From Trichosporon coremiiforme (Eukaryota; Basidiomycota; Tremellomycetes; Trichosporonales; Trichosporonaceae): a stretch of DNA of 64,000 nt. Made by a program: the position numbers and the translations under genes. Position 1 is the first letter of the stretch; each line of letters starts with the position of its first letter. The notes beneath the pieces are model-generated. The model did not search any database and was not told the DNA's origin. It saw only the letters and a program-made list of their open reading frames with translations. The stretch covers positions 310,001 to 374,000 of the forward strand of contig BCJJ01000007.1 of assembly GCA_039545355.1 (NCBI GenBank), in the 5' to 3' direction. Shown one piece after another: positions 7,476 to 17,378 of the stretch.

Positions 7476-9406
7476 CTACAGGCAATACACCTCGTCGTGG
7501 AAGCCGACGCCGCCGGCACGGACACGCTGCGAGACACTGAGGGATGCGACGGCGTTACGCGCCTCGGAAACAAGTCCCTCGGGGCCGGCGGCGATGACGG
7601 CGAGTCCGCCGTGCTTCTCGCCCACGGGGAGTGCTTCACGGACAAGCTGAGCTACCTCGGGGCGGTACGGCGACACGGTCGTACCCTTGGGCAGACCTTC
7701 CGGCTGCGGGAGCGGATTCGGCGGAGAGGAGAGGTAGATGCTGAACTCGAGCTTGACGGTGAGACGCTCCGCGGTCTCGCGGAGGTGGGACAATGTCGGC
7801 GCCAGAGCCTCGACGAGGGACAGCTCGCGGACGACCCATGCTGCCCTCACTGCTCGAGGACCACGACCAGCTTCGGTTGCACAGAGAGCAGCCTCGATGC
7901 TTCCCAGGAGGAAGGTGACGCCGCTCCCACCCGCAACGGTGAGGACGGACTCATACCGCCCCAGGTCCATCTTGAGGCCGCCGTACGGACCGTCGATGGT
8001 CACGTATACGTGCCGTCCTGGATGGTCGAGAAGGGAGGCGGACCCGTCCTCCTCCGCCGCCAGGAAGGCGACGCGCTTCTCGTAGTCGTCGCCGTACTCA
8101 AGCCCCTGGTCGGAGGCCATCTCGTGCAGCCGCCGCGTCCAGTCGCCAGCAACCTTGGCGTAAAGCACGATGCCGCGGGGACTTGAGGACAGGGCGTTCC
8201 GCGGTGCATTCGTGATCGTGAAAGGGTGGCTCTCAAACACGCCCGCACCGCGTAGAACACGGATATTGACGTGCTGAGTGGGCAGCCAGCCCTTGTCGCA
8301 GTCGGGAATGTGAATCAGCGTCGTCGAGCTGTCGACGGGAACGATGGTAGCGTCCTTGAACCGGTATCGCAGGAGGCGGACGAAGTGGCTGGCGTCAGTT
8401 TCCACGAAAGAGAGCTCCAACTCACTCGTACGCGTAGAACGCAACGCAGACGTAGACCCACGGCATAGCGTAGGTTGTGTGGTAGCACATGGCGACGAAG
8501 AAGCCGAGGACGAACGCAATGTGGCTCAGCCAGAAGAGCTGATAGAACTTGCGGCGAATCGGCTTCAGACTCGTGATCACGACCATGCACAGGAAGCCGT
8601 AGGAGATCAGGCCGCGCTTGACCTTTGCCTTGTGCAGCTCGGGCGAGTCGACCTCGATGAACTGGTTGAGCCAGAGTGAACCGTGAACCGTCGCCGCGAG
8701 CCAGGTCGTACGTCCCGCCCAGCGGTGGATGAAGTTGTAGTGCTCGTACGAGAGCGAGGGCAGGAACACGGGCAGGGGCAGCGGGCTCTTCATCGAGAAC
8801 AGGAAGACGACGGGGAGCTGGGCAACGGCGAGAAAACCGGGTCGGTTCGAGTTGTCGGTCAGCTCGGCGCCGACGGTGAAACAGGCGATGACGGCAGCAA
8901 TGTACGCGCACACAAGGACAATCTGTCCCACGCTCAGCGACAGGTAGCTCCGTCGGCAGCAGTCGCCGGCACGCTTCCACAGCACAGAAGGCGCCGGGAT
9001 CGTCCACAGCGTCACACTCTGCCAGATCGCCTGCCCGAGGCGGACGACCTTCGCTCCCAGATTGTTACGCCGGATCCGCGGCGGGGGCGCATCGCGCTCC
9101 ACATGCTCTGGCGCGCGGTCCTTCAGGCTCTCCCGGATCGAGAAACCCTTGTACAGTGTGCCATTGCGCCATGCGTGGACGACCCAGGGGATCGAGGCGA
9201 CGGTCGTGAAGGCGAGGACGGAGCACCAGATGATCGTGAATTTGCGCTGCCATTGCGGGTCGATCTCGTACGAACTGGGGTCAGATATGTGGGCAAGCGG
9301 CGAGGCTCACTTGTATATCTGCGGTCAGTGACTGCCTCCACCGGCTGGCTTTACTCACTTGGAACTCCTGCGGGATGTCAGGCAGCTGCCTGCGGAGAAG
9401 CGACAT
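7476..9406 (-). CDS. Ferric reductase-type transmembrane flavocytochrome
   Basis: Expected to move electrons from cytosolic NADPH through FAD and two haems to reduce metal (usually Fe3+) outside the cell. Exons are 9359-9406, 9311-9318, 8426-9274 and 7476-8388, giving 605 residues. The second exon has only 8 nt; it is needed to keep frame between the MSLLRRQLPDIPQEFQ start and the downstream YEIDPQWQRKFTIIW. About seven hydrophobic segments lie in residues 30-300. The haem region includes HYNFIHRWAGR and VHGSLW, with a further His in LSHIAF. The FAD-binding motif is HPFTITN; the NAD(P)-binding parts include GPYGG and VAGGSGVTFLLG. The C-terminus ends GFHDEVYCL. This is the usual FRE/NOX-related layout; the first transmembrane region is shorter than in some FRE proteins. 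The electron acceptor cannot be read from sequence. Confidence 0.88.
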
Positions 9407-10361
9407 GGCGAGTGCAGATCGACGCCGCTGTCTTCGACGAGATGTTCAAGACGGTATTGCGAGGTGGAGTGTGCAATGTCAAAGCATGACTACGTTGTCT
9501 CGCTGTAGTAGCTTCGGCGGTGGCCAGCAGCAGAATGCGCCTGTCAGCCCTCTTTGCGTGGTTGGCCCGACATTGAGCGAGGGCTGCTCGAACTCTACTG
9601 GCCGAGGCCCTGAGGTTATGTGGGTGGGTCGGATACATTCTCCGGCATAATGCCGCATGATCGTGGAATGCTGAGCCATTTTCGGCTTGCTCCTCCCGAT
9701 CACTTTCTTACGAGACCTCCACTCACTTTCTAAGAACCGCAAAGGTTGACCATGCTGAGACACGTGGTATGCTTCACACATTGCCTCATCTCGGAGAATT
9801 AACTCTATTCGAGAACTCGCTGGTTGCGAACTGAGGGTAATCTACAATGCCCTGCGCGCAGCAGAAGCACAATAGAGCGGGAACGCCGCTCTCTTCCCAC
9901 TGATAAGGTTGCATTCCGCACCATTCTGGATCAGATCGCAGTGCAAATTTCTAGGCCTGGCGTCAGATCTCCTACGCTTGTTCTTAGCTTGAGGTTACGT
10001 AGCCCTTGCATCAGCTTCGAGAAGACTTCGAATCGGATGCGAGCAAAGAACGAAGCCGGACAATGAAATAAACACACAGAACCTTCCTTTGGACGCGATT
10101 GAACTCGCTGCCCTGACTGGCGCTCGGATCCGGTTAGCCTCTCCTTCTTTTGGCGGCTGAAAGCTTCAGTTGGAGGGTACAGCGGGCTTTGCATTCTGAT
10201 GAACAACGACAAACTCTTCGTAGACATGCTATCTTGAACGGGCGACCTTCACCGCCTGAACTTGTCCCTGTGCGTCAGTTGAAGATATGGAGCTCAGCTG
10301 AAGCCGAAGCCTGTGCGACGGACCTGCTTCCGCCGCATCCGAGCTTGGTAGTCAACTCGCA
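9407..10361. other. Intergenic, no gene recognised
   Basis: Nearly 1 kb without a supported gene. The part next to 9406 should hold the ferric reductase promoter; I saw no clear TATA or repeated motif there. Confidence 0.45.
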
Positions 10362-10998
10362 TTAGAAAGGATTCTGATTCACAATTTGTGAATCGAACGC
10401 ACGCACGATCGCGACAATCAGCCCAGATCTCAGTCGTCCTCCCCTTCCTCTCCAATCTCCTTCCCCATCCTCCTCCTCATCAACGTCTTCCGAATTGTCG
10501 GTATCTTCCGAGTCAGACTCAGCCTTCCCCTCGGCCAGAGGCGCGGGACCCAAAACCTGGGCCGCATGGAAGAGCACCTGCCCATGCTGACGTTGAAGGG
10601 AAAGGGAAGCAGGAAATGGTGCTGACGAACTTGCCGACGAGGGTGGGGAGGGCGGCTCCGATAGCCCCATTGGCGACGCGGTTGGGGTCGTTGTACGCAT
10701 ACAGTCCGCCCAGAGCTCGATACGCCGCCAAATGCTTGTCAACCCAAGCCCTGCCCGCGTCGTTGGTGTAGGGCGGAGCCGGGGGGTTCCCGATAAGGTT
10801 GTCGAGGAAGGCGTGCAACTTCAGTGCGAGCACGTAGCGCACCGCGTAGCTGCCCACTGAATGCTCGGCACACTCGGCGCCGCCCAGCTCCACCATGCGC
10901 GAACACAGACGGCGGAGCTCGTCCGCATCGCCGACGTTCGGGATGCCAGCTGGCTTCAGGGCGATTAATTGGCGGACACGGTTTACGATGGCGCGCAA
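10362..10998 (-). CDS. Hypothetical protein with acidic C-terminus, 5' end unresolved
   Basis: The strongest coding stretch is 10627-10998 (RVRQLIALKPAGIPNVGDAD, then AEHSVGSYAVRYVLALKLHA), a helical, alanine/leucine-rich sequence I do not recognise. A 40-nt intron at 10587-10626 (weak donor GTCAGC) would join it to a different frame encoding an acidic tail (SDSEDTDNSEDVDEEEDGEG) down to 10362; unspliced it would stop at 10519. Upstream, the only nearby ATG (11065-11067) is in the same frame but meets a TAG at 11002-11004, directly before CAA TTG. Either the TAG is the end of an intron, or the true start is internal, or the gene is broken or read through. It lies immediately downstream, on the same strand, of the mini-intron array and could be its last exon. 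Confidence 0.35.
10376..10394. repeat. Short perfect inverted repeat
   Basis: Two 9-bp arms (GATTCACAA and TTGTGAATC) around one central base. It falls in the last codons of the uncertain gene, which weakens the coding call there and could instead be a hairpin at a transcript end. Confidence 0.6.
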
Positions 10999-11078
10999 TT
11001 GCTACCCGTTCGGTTGATGGACCAAGATTCTGGCAGCGGCGAGGGCTTCGGTAGTGGGAGCGCTCATGACGGCGTAGC

Positions 11079-13086
11079 CTGGTTGTCAGCTAGATCTGCG
11101 ACCAATGTTAGCTCACCAGTGGTGTTGGAGGGGTCGGTATCGTCCGTAGCGGTTTATGCGCCGGGATGGGTGAAGGAGACAATGGTAAAGCGACAACGAT
11201 GCAAAGCAGTGCAGACGGACTGCTGCGCTGGCATTCGCACCTGCACCTTGGAATCGACAGCCGTGTCCATGACCTGTCGTCCTTCGACTGGGGAGCGGTC
11301 GCGTGGTGGTGTACAGAACCTCGACGGAGGGTAACCTCCACCGACAAAAGACAGTCCTACGGCTCAGGGAGGCCCATGGACTATCTCTTTCAAACCCAAG
11401 CTTCGTGTGAACGTAGCCCTAGCCCGTATTCATGGAACTCATTGCAGACAGGCGGAATTAAGAAGAAACCGGCGAAAATCCCTTAATCCGACAGTGTGCC
11501 ACGGCTTGGACTGCAAGTAAGCTCTTGCGTTCTTAGCTCGACAAGAGCTCACATCTGCAAGCCACAGTTGGGCGTTCCGATCAAGGTATGGCGGTAGTCA
11601 GTCCAGTCACTCCTTGCACGCTGCAAGTCAGTTTTTGAGGTACAGCGGAAGCTCACTCAGGCGGCTGGGAGTAGTGGCACCATCTCGTTGACATACCCAG
11701 CGCACTCATCGACGGCCTGGCTTCCAACCAGGCAAGAGACTCTATTGGATCTACTGTTCGTTAGCTGCCAGCCAGGCACACTGTAGCTCACCGTGACCTC
11801 CTCACCGTTGCCATCGAAACTGTTATGTTGCGTCACGAGTAGCGTTAGCTTGCCTTCAGCGACTGGCCGTCAGTTCCGCACACGTTTCGTGAGATGACCC
11901 TTGCGGCTTACTGGCCAAGTCATGAGCGGGGGAGAAGGTGGGCCGACTGGACCATGAGCTATCGACGCGAATGATAGGTCACCCCTTTGGAGAGGGGAAG
12001 TGGAGATCGGACTAGCTGTCGGTCAGCTTTGGATTCGTGGATGGAAGCTCACCTCCGTGCTTTCGACACCTGTAGTCCGAAGCGTTGAATGGAGTCAGCT
12101 GTCTGCAAGTCTGATGTGGAGTTAGCTCACCGTCGCATGATGGCAGCCCGAAGCTTTCTCGCTGGCTGTAAGCTACTTTGCATGCACCAAGGTCAGCTGC
12201 CCACGCCGCCCACCTCGCATGCGTCCCGCCGCACACATGGAGTCAGCTGTTGCGGCGAACGCTCCTAGCTTATACCTCGAAGCGCTTGTAAGGAAGGATG
12301 CGGGGTAACGTTCGAGTCCGTTCTCTGGCACCCGCTCAACGTGCAGTACGCTTGACCCTGCTCTGCACTTATGGCGATTTTTCAAGAACTGACTTGCTGT
12401 CAGACGTCCCTGTGCCATCTGGAGTGAGCTACGCTGTAGGCAAGTTTGAAGCTCACAGTTTCTTTGGGTGAGTGATAGAATTCTTGGCTGGCGGTCAGCT
12501 ACAATGGCGTACGGCTGACAGAAGCCTAAGCTGACATCGTCTACCGTTCCCATTCTTGGGGCTCCCAGTCACCTGACATGACCTGAAGTCGTCTTGTACT
12601 GTAGCTTACCTTCTCACGAGAGCAAGGCATAGACAGCGAGGCTGGCTGTCTGCTGCAGCTATCCTCGCAGCTGACGCAATAATATGGGGACGTCTGGAGC
12701 CTACCCGCGGTCTCTTGAGGGTTGGAGTTAGCTGAGAATTACCGCCGAGCAGCTTACCGACTAAAGCAGACGAGCGAGAATGAAAGGTGCCGACTGGCGG
12801 TTAGCTTCCCGTGACCCAAGCGATAGCTGCACAACTCACACTCCTCGCCGCCTGCTGTCAGCTACAGATCGGCGGGGCAGCTTGCCCCGCCTCTCTTGCT
12901 TGTGGGAGGGACCCCCTGGTGAGTCAGCTATGGGTCTACATCCCTAACTGCTACCTCCGCCATGTCTACGTGACGCTACTGTAGTAGCTAGTATCAGCTA
13001 CGACCGCTCTGACTTAGCTCACCAAGCACCCTCGCGCCCGAGCGGGAGTGATCGCCACCTGCGGGTCAGTTTTGCATCCAACTCAC
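11079..13086 (-). other. Mini-intron array, more divergent half
   Basis: On the minus strand this stretch holds many units with a spliceosomal donor, a branch site and an acceptor AG within 35-50 nt. Clear ones are at 11079-11116, 11512-11552, 11621-11656, 11751-11791, 11863-11911, 12016-12052, 12419-12456, 12794-12839 and 12988-13022. In this half the donor is usually GTGAGCT and the branch AGCTGAC or GCTAAC, the same signals used by proven introns of coding genes nearby. No reading frame of useful length crosses the pieces in between. It may be a non-coding multi-exon transcript or the leader of the gene at 10362-10998. Confidence 0.6.
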
Positions 13087-13234
13087 TAACTTGCCTCCTT
13101 TATCACTGTGGATGTCTCGAGTCACCTGGTATCAGCTATGACAGGATGGATCAACTCCAGCTTCCTCATACCTGAGCCGGTAGCTGGGTATCAGTTAACC
13201 ATACAGACGCGTAACTGACCGTCTCCGTGTTTGG

Positions 13235-14781
13235 CTGAAGTCAGTTTTAAAGCGTAGTCGAGAACTCACCTCCTGACAGCCTGCCTTAATAGTCTGGAGA
13301 AGAGTGGCTGAGTCATGCGAGTCTGTCCGTTAGCTAGAAAGTCGCGCGCATGTCAGTTCACGTTAAAGGAACGGGAGCTATACGCTCGTGTCTCCGCCCG
13401 CTGTCGTCTCGATGAGCGCTGTCGTTCAGCTCAAACCCTGGTCATCGTAACTCGCCTCGAACAACTGGACGTCAGTTCGATCGTCTGCTTCTCGAACTCA
13501 CCCCATTACCAAACCCACAAACCCCTCTCGTCGCTCGAGCGAGGTGGTTCGAACAGCCTCAGATGGTGCTGGGCTTAGTTTCGTTCGTGACGCGTCAAAC
13601 TCACGTATTACCGCACTGGGGTCAGTTGGTCAATGACTGGTGAGAAACTCACCGGTCTCCCACGCCTTAGTGTTCCCCAAGGCACTGGAAGTGCGAAATG
13701 CAGCTAGGACCAGCGACACTGTGGTCAGTTCCCGTTCAGAGGATCGTGTCACTCACCGTAATACTCGTCCTCTCCTCACGCTGGGATCAGTTTGCCAATC
13801 GACGTCTTGGAAACTCACTGGTACCCTTCGGCTGACCACATCATTCTCTCGTCAACGTATCGACAGACAGAGGCGAGGGAGCTGTAGTGATGCTGGAGTC
13901 AGTTTATCCTTTCGCTCACGAAGCTCATCCAACTTTCCACAGCGCTGGAGGGCAGTTTGCAACCGGTTCGTCTAACTCATCATCCTCCCTCCTCTTCCTT
14001 CTCTCTCATTGAGCAAGTGGCGCCGAAAATTAGGGTCTCGCGCTGGAGTCAGTTTGGGTGAAGAACGGCAAAACTCACCGCCACTTTCTTTGCAAAGCTG
14101 GTGGTCCGTTCGAAAGCGAGACTTCCCAACTCACTTTCAGTGTCCCCCCACTCCACCCTTCTGCTGAATGGCAAGGCCGAATCTCGTTCTTGAGGTCAGT
14201 TCGAACGCAGGCGGGCGAACTCACCCTCCCTCCCCTGCTGCTGAATCCACTGGAGTCAGTTTTGCAATGGCTCTTTGGGCAAACTCACCATCTCACCTAC
14301 GACTCACTCCCCTCATCCGCTCACTGAAAACGAGTGATACCCAGGGACCAGGCATAAATTCTCGCGCTGGGATCAGTTGTGACGCATGGCCCGACAGCTT
14401 GGCCTCGTCGTCTCTCGCACCGCTGGGGGTCAGTTCAACAGTGCATGGTCAACTCACTCTCAGCATCTCTCAACACAGACAGCACCGAAACACAGAGCCC
14501 AAAGCTCTCGTGCTGGGGGGTCAGTTCTTTCCAACGATGGCATAACTCACCCCTCCTTTCCAAGCTGCTGGTCAGTTCATCAACGAAGCCCGAGCAACTC
14601 ACTTCCAGACTCCCATCTCAACCTCCCTGCAATGGGGATACTGGACAGGGGCGGGGGGTCTCGCTGGGATATCTCGCTGGGATGTCTCGCTGGGATGAGT
14701 TCGAAAAGGAGATCAGGACAACTCATGACGACTGACGACTGCTGGGGTCTGTTGATCTCTTCTAGCAACGAGTACACTCAC
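13235..14781 (-). other. Mini-intron array, dense half
   Basis: Fourteen clean units of 35-40 nt, each GTGAGT(T) ... AACTGAC-CCCAG or a close variant on the minus strand: 13235-13269, 13465-13501, 13569-13604, 13616-13652, 13719-13756, 13781-13818, 14043-14078, 14098-14134, 14189-14224, 14250-14288, 14423-14457, 14513-14550, 14568-14602 and 14742-14781. Four more are decayed: 13893-13919 (27 nt), 13945-13980 and 14690-14726 (AT in place of the GT donor) and one starting at 14367 (no donor). The pieces between them are 11 to about 135 nt (for example 13605-13615 has 11 nt and 14551-14567 has 17). Joining the pieces does not give an open frame: the series 13757-13780, 13653-13718, 13605-13615 meets TGA or TAA. 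I therefore do not call a protein. Confidence 0.7.
14659..14697. repeat. Tandem repeat, 3 x 13 bp
   Basis: Three copies of TCTCGCTGGGAT(A/G) in a row. The unit equals the minus-strand acceptor-plus-exon-start sequence (ATCCCAGCGAGA) found at several units of the surrounding array. Confidence 0.75.
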
Positions 14782-15318
14782 CTTCTTTAACCTCCGACAA
14801 CCTCTCATCCTTCTATAGCTACTGACACGTCAAGGACCGAGCGTTGTCGGGCCGCGTCGAGCTGGGCGCGAGGACGAATAATCGAGTGAACCAGTCAGCT
14901 CGTATGGTCCAGAGTTGACAGGAAGCGAGTGTTCAGTGGGAAAGGGTCGAAGCTAGTTGCTGTCGTGTCGTCGTGTTGTCCGTCTCAGGCGATCAGACGT
15001 TCGTCCCTGCGCCCTGCTCGTGCTCTCCACGCTACCTTCGCCCATGTCGTCACGATCTGCAGTGAGTCTCCCACGGGACAGCCTGTCGCCTCCCAACGCC
15101 CGTTGCCACCCGTTCATGGCCCGTTGCCACCCAGCCTCGGCACCCAGCCGACGCTCGTCACCTAGCCAGCGCCCCTTCCCTCGTCGCAACCCAGTGCCCC
15201 AGAAGTCAGTCTCCCAACACGCCATGAACCTTCAGAGGCTGCATATGTACAGCAAGTCTACGAATTACAACTAAGGGGCTCCCTTCATGTCTCCTATTAG
15301 AAAGCTTAGTGAGCGCGA
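14782..15318. other. Intergenic; likely upstream region of the array
   Basis: No gene recognised. Short direct repeats of CCCGTTGCCACCC occur near 15100-15135. If the array is transcribed on the minus strand its start should lie here. Confidence 0.4.
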
Positions 15319-17378
15319 CTACAGGCGCTGGTCCTTGGGCATGAACTTCATAGCCTGGCTGTGGGGGTGTTAGCGTGCATTCATGAGGTTTGGAGAGGGG
15401 ATGCGGGGCCCATAGGCTGATCCGCGCTAGAGGGGCGCTAGTTCGGCGGCGTGGGAGGGCGCAGCCACCGAAGCCAGGCGTAGATCAGGCACCACTGCCA
15501 CTGCGAAACCACCTCACCAAATCCTTTCGAGGATTTCTCTTCAAGTGACACTCACCGGACTCCAAGGTCTCCGAGGACCTCCTCGGCGCCTCCGAGGATG
15601 GCGTCGAATTTCTGGGTACGCTGGAATTGCTCAATGAAGCGTCCCATGCCAGTCTTGGTCAGTCCGCGACCTCCGAAGATCTGGACGGCGTCGTCGGCGA
15701 TCTCGCCGGCGACACGGGTCGAGAGCATCTTGAGGAAGCCGATCTGGCCGGCCAGGTGCTTGCTCTGCTCGCGGTAAGTCATGTTGCACATCTGGAAGGT
15801 GACGTTCTCGAGGTAAGACTGGACAGCCTCGACCTTTGCGATCATGTGGGCGAGCCTGGGTTGTGGTTAGCACGGTGGACGTTGGGAGTGGAGGTGGTGT
15901 GGGGTCCCAAATGGCCACGCGACAAGTCACGTGCCAGCTAGACCTCCCCGCTACGAGACCCGGTTTGATCGCCGGGGGACTCACTTCTGACGGATGACAG
16001 GCTGGGCAAGGAGGGGCTTGCCGAAGACAGTGCGCTGGGCGCCCCAGAGGAGACACTCCTCGACGATGGCGCGGGAGCCACGGGCCGACGAGCAGCACAT
16101 GATCCAGCGCTCGTGGTTGAAGTTGGAGAGAATGACGAGGAGACCTCCGTTCTCGGGGCCGAGCATGTTCTCGTTGGGGACGACGACGTCCTTGAACTCG
16201 ATGTAGGCGGTACCGGCGGCAGTCGAGTACGAGGTCTTGATCTGCTTGGTGGTGACGCCCTCGCCGCGGGGGACGAGGAAGACGGTGAGACCGCCGTCGG
16301 TGCGGCATCCAACGGTGAAGTAGTCGGCGTGCATACCGCCAGTGATCCACTTCTTGGTACCGTTGATGACCCACGAGCCGTCCTCGCGCTGGACGGCGGT
16401 GGTGCGGAGACCAGCGACGTCGGAACCGGCGAACGCCTCAGTGATGGCGAGACAGATAGCCTTCTGGCCCGAGAAGACCTCCTCGAGGACACGCGAGCGG
16501 AGGGGCTCCTGTCCGAAGTTCATGACAGGGGGCAGACCAATGACCATGCCCGAGTTGAGACCGTCTCCGTATCCACGGGCGGCGCAGCGGGTGATCTCCT
16601 GGGTGAGAACGAGCTCGTGGAAGTAGTTGAACTTCTTGCCGTCGACGCCGCCGATGAGTTCCTTGCCGTGGAGGTGCTTGCCGGGGCCGAGACGCATGCG
16701 GTTCAGGTTGTTGTCGCCCATCGACTTGAGAACCTCGGGCGAGGCGCGCTTGCCGTTGTCCTCGCAAGCCTGCGCGTCGGGGTACAGGACCTCGTCGACG
16801 TACTTGCGCATGGCAACCTGAAGGGCGCGGTGCGAGTCATCGTAGTAGGGCGACTTGAAGGCGGGGGTGAGCCAAGTAGGCTCAGCGTAGGGAACCTTGG
16901 ACAGGTCTCCGGGAAGATGAGGCTTGATCTTCTCTTGCTCTCCCTTGATCTGGCCAACACGCAGGCGCTGGTACTGGGGCTTGCGGAGGACCTCGTCGCG
17001 GTGGAGACCGAAGAAGACGGTGGTGGCGTCCTTACCGGCTGCCCGGGGGGTCAGTTGTTTGTTCGTGTGAAGTCTGTTTGCGATCCGAGACGACGCGCCC
17101 GTCAGGCACTACAATAGCGCAACCAAGACGTCACTGCCAGACGGCCGCTCGTCGCCACTCGCATGTTGCTACTCACCGACATCCTGGTCGAGGAGGACGA
17201 CGGAGCCTCCGGGGTGGAGACGGGCGAACTTGGAAAGATCGTAGACGTACGAGTCGATGATCACGTAGAGGTCTCCCTCCTTGTTGTGCTGGGCGGATCA
17301 GCTTCAGGCAAAGGCACTTCAGCTAATACTCACCTGAGCGACCTCGTCGCGAGTGAACTGCTTCATCTCCTTGGACAT
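15319..17378 (-). CDS. Cytochrome b5-acyl-CoA dehydrogenase fusion
   Basis: Five exons (17334-17378, 17177-17288, 15985-17038, 15556-15855, 15319-15358) give 516 residues. Residues 1-85 form a cytochrome b5 domain with LHPGG at about 39-43. The rest is a full acyl-CoA dehydrogenase: N-terminal helical part, the signature AITEAFAGSDVAGLRTTA, the beta domain, and the C-terminal helical part with FGGRGLTKTGMGRFIEQFQR. This b5-fused type is common in fungi and is thought to oxidise acyl-CoA chains; the b5 domain may take electrons from the flavin. The last exon encodes only 13 residues and ends in QRL, which resembles but does not match the usual SKL-type peroxisomal signal. No mitochondrial presequence is seen. 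Introns are 45, 138, 129 and 197 nt. Confidence 0.9.

Follow-up and report, generated by a model that had tools for sequence, protein, structure and literature searches.

In the basidiomycete yeast Cryptococcus neoformans, non-coding transcripts termed miscRNAs carry small spliceosomal introns; a total of 1,434 introns is given, with 765 of 1,197 miscRNAs being spliced (PMC3990503). In the 64,000-nucleotide (nt) stretch of Trichosporon coremiiforme DNA analyzed here (the window; C7:310001-374000 of a genome of 42 Mb in 134 contigs), a dense array of mini-introns was predicted on the minus strand, flanked on one side by an acyl-CoA dehydrogenase gene (stop near 15320) and on the other by a small gene (10.4-11.0 kb). 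The two systems differ in density, as the Cryptococcus figures amount to about 2 introns per spliced RNA by our computation, while nine loci here held 12-36 strong predictions each (model score of at least 20). They also differ in their evidence, as the Cryptococcus introns rest on RNA-seq, and the array introns are predicted from sequence.

Three other described systems show a partial likeness. Introner-like elements and symmetrical stwintrons are introns that multiply within fungal genomes and have symmetrical or structured sequence, but they are repetitive, related copies spread across genes, whereas the array units lie head to tail in non-coding DNA (PMC8469720, PMC4457414). Zipper stems in Saccharomyces introns are helices by which donor and branch point are brought close to each other (PMC12350175); the helix proposed below differs in that the splice signals would form it directly, within introns of about 37 nt. 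SCANR in Cryptococcus is an intron-dependent nuclear regulation, likewise in a basidiomycete yeast, and RNA-dependent RNA polymerases are present here as well. However, the trigger of SCANR is inefficient splicing, and the array introns scored as strong rather than suboptimal (PMC5851062). Among the top search results in the open-licence literature, we recognized nothing that describes such arrays or the donor-branch covariation reported below.

The array was scored with a position-specific model that covers donor, branch site, acceptor, and lengths and whose training set came from other loci and from the window outside the array; at a score of 20, the last training round yielded 300 matches in real and 19 in shuffled sequence. 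Between 15000 and 11000, 26 strong mini-introns were predicted on the minus strand and 1 on the antisense strand, against a mean of 0.54 and a maximum of 2 in 50 first-order Markov shuffles. A strict intron pattern gave 19 matches (two overlapping) in 3740 nt, where 0.41 were expected. The array of donor, branch, and acceptor units described in an earlier note on this DNA is therefore real. Its counts of at least 14 units in 13235-14781 and at least 9 in 11079-13022 agreed with the 14 and 10 obtained from the model. Four weaker units had scores of 16-20. Between units scoring at least 16, the shortest exons were 11, 14, 15, and 19 nt, which reproduced two of the short pieces noted before (11 and 19 nt) and not a third of 17 nt.

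The consensus of the array units was that of the genome's introns; GTGAGTTN16-24AACTGACN0-4CAG occurred 1027 times in the 42 Mb and 0 times in the reversed control. Median lengths were 37 nt in arrays and 38 nt elsewhere, and mean scores were 27.0 (n=277) and 25.3 (n=248), respectively, counting all introns at a score of at least 18. In signals and in length, the array units thus matched the genome's other introns. Carrying the genome's own donor, branch, and acceptor consensus, the units would count as U2-type (major-spliceosome) introns. The array has two halves whose introns differed at donor position +6 and in the base preceding the branch motif, with T/A-type introns in the upper half and mostly C/G-type introns in the lower half (Table 1). 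Set apart from the others by 394 nt, the unit at 11116-11079 is kept, beside a kept ATG, in the second copy of the locus on contig C21. This unit is the leader intron of the downstream small gene, and the array proper is 11511-14781, so that the extent first given (11079..14781) held except for this last unit.

Arrays of this kind were found at other places in the genome. The pattern GTRAGCT..AGCTRAC..GTRAGCT, which spans an intron, a short exon, and the donor that follows, matched 236 times, with 0 matches in the reversed control. Eight stretches were taken from clusters among the matches listed, making the number of arrays a lower bound. Seven of these were further non-coding arrays (L044, L045, and L047-L051) with 13-36 strong introns each; the remaining one (L046) was the meiotic gene DMC1. 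When the nine array loci were compared with each other, 6 of the 36 pairs shared short matches, seven in all at an expect value (E) of up to 1e-3. The units therefore had little in common beyond their splice signals, and the close copies at many places that characterize introner-like elements were not found.

Coding potential was assessed with a dynamic program that finds the best stop-free splicing path through candidate introns (score of at least 14) and sets it against 60 versions in which the exon letters were shuffled. In the window array, 33 of the 60 shuffles equaled the real sequence, which confirmed the earlier statement that no reading frame runs between the units, and 17 of 60 did so when the upper half was run alone. 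No frame beyond shuffles was obtained in any of the 12 array stretches tested, where 8 to 43 of 60 shuffles reached the observed value (C21, 43; L044, 29; L045, 35; L047, 35; L048, 37; L049, 28; L050, 18; L051, 8; L054, 35; L056, 40; L063, 19). For L047-L051, L056, and L063, the test covered the whole fetched stretches, flanks included, and the weakest negative, L051, takes in an open reading frame (ORF) for a FAD oxidoreductase. Coding controls behaved differently, with values of 1/60 for DMC1, 0/60 for the FMN-dependent dehydrogenase of the window, and 1/60 for the acyl-CoA dehydrogenase stretch. As in a spliced long non-coding RNA, no coding frame remained in the window array after predicted splicing. 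A host gene for small nucleolar RNA or another known RNA was also considered and rejected, as a search of 9000-17000 against Rfam at E up to 5 returned two matches, whose scores of 23.7 and 17.8 bits lay below the cut-offs of 80.

The neighborhoods that were followed exist in two diverged copies (C7/C21, C7/C15, C5/C17, and C2/C4). The genome is probably hybrid or doubled, and from the paired gene copies, the size of 42 Mb, and the G+C content we infer a Trichosporonales hybrid; hybrids are documented within Trichosporonales (PMC12820176). In the C21 copy of the window locus, the order of acyl-CoA dehydrogenase, array, and small gene was kept and the flanks aligned at 65-81%. Nothing inside the array aligned at E up to 0.01, and C21 held 12 strong introns on the corresponding strand against 0 on the opposite one. 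The C17 copy of L045 held 14 strong introns, against 29 in L045, with none on the other strand and two short inner matches remaining. The flanks of L048 (C7:603 kb) sit about 50 kb apart on C15, at C15:126.9-128.7 kb and about 178-180 kb, indicating that the locus was split by a rearrangement with its break in or next to the array. Both C15 pieces carried introns, 10 strong ones beside one flank and 14 beside the other, and one further short match to L048 lay near the piece with 14. Shuffles predicted 0.14-0.32 strong introns for the second-copy arrays. All three array loci traced to a second copy thus had an intron array there, with flanks aligning at 65-98% and the array sequence largely unalignable.

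The copies of DMC1, L046 (C4:1540501-1545500) and L057 (C2:507501-511500), provided a measure of this divergence. The gene matched NCBIfam TIGR02238 at 470 bits, above the cut-off. About 20 mini-introns were predicted in it, several lying behind the stop codon as read. Over the 19 introns sharing donor columns, identity between the copies was 88% in exons, 85% in donors, 92% in branch sites, 100% in acceptors, and 44% in intron interiors, so that intron sequence outside the signals has largely turned over. In the arrays, introns persisted and the remaining sequence became unrecognizable, a pattern suggesting that what counts there is the ability to be spliced.

The base at donor position +6 covaried, in the manner of a base pair, with the one just ahead of the branch motif CTRAC. 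Genome-wide counts of the strict patterns, which include introns of arrays, the two copies of genes, and a few matches that overlap, were 1027 for T-A, 224 for T-G, 84 for C-A, and 1361 for C-G (odds ratio 74), with 0, 0, 0, and 4 in the reversed controls. The greater tolerance of T-G than of C-A fits base pairing of donor AGYT with ARCT. Outside the arrays, 192 introns at other loci gave an odds ratio of 9.1 (p 5e-8), and a wider set of 331 gave 7.0. Within this wider set, the odds ratio was 24.5 when the neighboring pair (donor position 7 with the base before) was T-A and 2.2 otherwise. It also fell with intron length, from 37.5 at 30-36 nt (n=101) and 13.8 at 37-40 nt (n=107) to 2.1 at 41-60 nt (n=86, p 0.26) and 0.6 at 61-90 nt (n=37, p 0.62); longer predictions probably hold more false introns, which would lower the odds ratio too. 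Donor-branch duplex energy was better in true than in permuted pairs, with z -2.7 outside arrays and -5.4 in arrays. As the covariation outside the arrays was confined to introns of at most 40 nt and depended on the neighboring pair, mini-introns probably form a donor-branch helix in which AGYT pairs with ARCT. Shared ancestry of two intron families could also produce covariation, and no double compensating change was present among the 19 DMC1 intron pairs; however, two-family ancestry does not readily predict dependence on length and on the neighboring pair. A mutual-information scan of non-array introns also returned a second coupling, of donor +3 with the variable branch base (z 5.9; main coupling, z 8.1).

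The two intron types were unevenly distributed. Outside the window array, the T/A type was rare among the array introns read. It was missing from L044, L045, and L046-L051, all picked with patterns favoring the C/G type, and from L054+, L056-, and L063-; it accounted for 3 of 12 introns in the C21 array. On contig C1, neighbors within 1 kb shared their type in 34 of 42 pairs (21.9 expected; reached by 8 of 5000 permutations). Once three array regions were removed, 18 of 25 pairs were concordant (12.6 expected; 143 of 5000), and this drop indicated that type clustering is largely a property of arrays. Regional base composition was rejected as the source of the two types, as T/A interiors were not poorer in G+C (0.573 vs 0.539).

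Tandem duplication was examined by a self-similarity test on ten stretches, with splice signals fixed and the other letters shuffled 40 times. Total self-similarity scores were 157 in L044 (null maximum, 130), 471 in L045 (85), and 386 in L049 (107); 0 of 40 shuffles reached them, and the duplicated modules were mostly 60-180 nt long at 67-81% identity. Four stretches were not clearly above the null (upper half of the C7 array, 6/40; lower half, 2/40; L048, 4/40; L051, 2/40), and C21, L047, and L050 had no self-similarity match. Among the controls, DMC1 had no match, the FMN dehydrogenase gave 2/40, and the acyl-CoA dehydrogenase gave 0/40 on a single weak match, so that small totals mean little and L044 is the least secure case. 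The multiplication of introns in tandem, one of three ideas in the earlier note, was thus supported in three of ten stretches and not detected above the null in the window array itself. Within duplicated modules, identical positions made up 271/305 (89%) of splice signals, counting a position as signal when it was one in either copy, 258/339 (76%) of exons, and 221/337 (66%) of intron interiors; the corresponding p-values (2e-5, 2e-12) are optimistic, as the alignments overlap and are partly anchored on the signals.

Our findings suggested that the array is probably a long non-coding RNA that is transcribed on its own and heavily spliced, with selection acting on the intron signals and not on the exons. 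Of the three earlier ideas, a hyper-fragmented non-coding RNA was the one best supported, by the lack of a frame, the second-copy array, and the existence of a class. Transcription, splicing in vivo, selection on splicing, and function are what we infer from these patterns. A minus-strand transcript would start at roughly 14.8-15.0 kb and end near 11.5 kb; a conserved 43-nt block upstream of the first intron hints at a promoter for it as a separate unit, and the 394-nt stretch lacking strong introns sets it apart from the small gene. By intron definition, the major spliceosome would act on about 25-30 sites in this transcript, removing introns of about 37 nt and leaving exons of about 11 nt to a few hundred. 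Each mini-intron would be closed by the pairing of donor AGYT with ARCT at its branch site, and arrays would grow by tandem duplication of multi-intron modules and lose units by decay. As little but the intron signals was kept, the useful output would most likely be splicing as such, by way of what it does to the transcript or to transcription nearby, or else the introns that are released. By going one step further, such loci could be genes whose product is splicing, the helix-closed arrays occupying spliceosomes or delivering excised introns as a titratable regulator, an idea that we regard as rather improbable.

Several observations weighed against a selected non-coding RNA. Second copies had fewer strong introns (12 v 26, 14 v 29, and 10+14 v 30), indicating that some decay is real, and the C21 array looked more worn than that of the window. 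The C15 piece with 10 introns also had 3 strong predictions on the other strand. In a long exon of the acyl-CoA dehydrogenase gene, 133 of 156 fourfold sites (85%) were still identical between copies. This makes the neutral rate uncertain, and slow decay could account for some of what was retained. The covariation was not significant in window introns outside the array (n=56, odds ratio 3.75, p 0.17). Exon k-mers over 12 arrays gave moderate 5-mers at best (GTCGA, 37 vs 13.7, under a null that did not keep dinucleotides), and no motif is claimed; as none was convincing enough, nothing ties the RNA to a partner.

The strongest rival is a neutral origin by tandem duplication, in which introns duplicate in transcribed intergenic DNA, splicing makes them harmless, and arrays grow and decay without function. 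This account carries a low but appreciable probability. It would explain the internal duplications, the decayed units beside good ones, the smaller number of introns in second copies, and the largely uniform intron type within arrays, which local copying would give. However, after duplication the signals were kept better than exons and intron interiors, and arrays persisted at all three traced loci across a divergence that left DMC1 intron interiors at 44%. Furthermore, neither the window array nor its C21 counterpart showed duplication above the null. Stalled spliceosomes feeding small-RNA production, as in Cryptococcus SCANR, would instead make the arrays triggers of RNA interference. The genome has RNA-dependent RNA polymerase matches (PF05183) at five loci, and the Cryptococcus pathway ties poor splicing to small interfering RNA (PMC5851062). 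The array introns were nevertheless as strong as or stronger than others, opposite to the inefficient splicing of the described trigger, and arrays sharing almost no sequence offer no apparent common target; we consider this more doubtful than a leader, which is itself unlikely.

A hyper-intronic 5' leader of the downstream gene, acting via splicing or upstream frames, would be consistent with a small gene on the same strand whose conserved ATG follows just after the last intron, and with same-strand coding ORFs downstream of L051 (FAD oxidoreductase) and L047 (GST). The suggestion that the array leads the gene at 10.4-11.0 kb nonetheless fared poorly, as that gene has its own leader intron, is separated from the array by a 394-nt stretch without strong introns that is conserved in C21, and appears frame-broken in both copies (window 10519-10998; L035 1440-2160). 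In addition, the L045 array runs towards a Cofilin ORF on the opposite strand (E 1.7e-21), and the L050 array likewise towards an opposite-strand ORF with a weaker AAA match, below its cut-off. With the next gene on the other strand in L045, and probably in L050, a leader role is not required of arrays in general. The least probable rival is a protein gene with micro-exons that evolves fast or has decayed. DMC1 demonstrates that very short coding exons are possible in this genome, but the stop-free paths of DMC1 and two other genes stood out from their shuffles, and those of the 12 array stretches did not.

If the arrays are spliced as a non-coding RNA, they would place tens of introns in a transcript with little else conserved, allowing the cost and possible benefit of splicing to be separated from coding. 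Some arrays hold tandem duplications in which the birth and loss of introns can be followed. The donor-branch covariation would permit a direct test of how the spliceosome accommodates introns under 40 nt, through a four-base helix that can be mutated in register and strength.

Table 1. Predicted introns of the array and neighboring features, in window coordinates; scores are those of the intron model
Feature	Position	Strand	Score or remark
Upper half of array, T/A-type introns (donor GTGAGTT, branch AACTGAC)	13059..14781	-	15/16 strong introns
Lower half, mostly C/G-type introns (donor GTGAGCT, branch AGCTGAC)	11511..13022	-	7/10 strong introns, a count that takes in the last unit 11116-11079
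Weak intron-like unit	14742..14781	-	17.4
Predicted mini-intron	14565..14602	-	33.1
Predicted mini-intron	14513..14550	-	32.4
Predicted mini-intron	14423..14457	-	32.9
Predicted mini-intron	14250..14288	-	30.8
Predicted mini-intron	14189..14224	-	29.3
Predicted mini-intron	14098..14134	-	22.1
Predicted mini-intron	14043..14078	-	32.9
Intron-like unit, weak donor	13893..13933	-	18.4
Predicted mini-intron	13781..13818	-	29.7
Predicted mini-intron	13719..13756	-	27.8
Predicted mini-intron	13616..13652	-	32.1
Predicted mini-intron, 11-nt exon before it	13569..13604	-	20.6
Predicted mini-intron	13465..13501	-	31.3
Predicted mini-intron	13323..13361	-	26.7
Predicted mini-intron	13235..13269	-	31.5
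Predicted mini-intron	13184..13219	-	29.8
Predicted mini-intron	13059..13090	-	21.1
Predicted mini-intron	12988..13022	-	29.8
Intron-like unit, weak donor	12916..12948	-	18.2
Predicted mini-intron	12794..12839	-	29.1
Weak intron-like unit	12642..12675	-	19.7
Predicted mini-intron	12488..12535	-	26.0
Predicted mini-intron	12419..12456	-	22.4
Predicted mini-intron	12016..12052	-	32.1
Predicted mini-intron	11863..11911	-	24.8
Predicted mini-intron	11754..11791	-	30.5
Predicted mini-intron	11621..11656	-	31.9
Last mini-intron of array proper	11511..11552	-	20.3
5'-leader intron of downstream small gene, outside array proper	11079..11116	-	34.0; C21 counterpart L035 2200-2163 scores 31.0
Short conserved block upstream of first intron, candidate promoter	14991..15033	-	79% over 43 nt to C21, E 1.3e-4
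Conserved region, probably the small gene's promoter/leader and body	10621..11502	-	65% over 928 columns to C21
Longest open frame of small acidic-tailed gene, outside array	10519..10998	-	frame apparently broken in this copy
Upstream neighbor, acyl-CoA dehydrogenase gene, 5' end approximate	15319..17300	-	Pfam Acyl-CoA_dh domains in two exons; second copy on C21

The small acidic-tailed gene downstream of the array had no Pfam match, and two relatives of it were found (P0001, P0002). The PF05183 matches lay at C11:942298, C23:759237, C1:206510, C3:1426080, and C32:30674, some of them with internal stops that are possibly unspliced introns.

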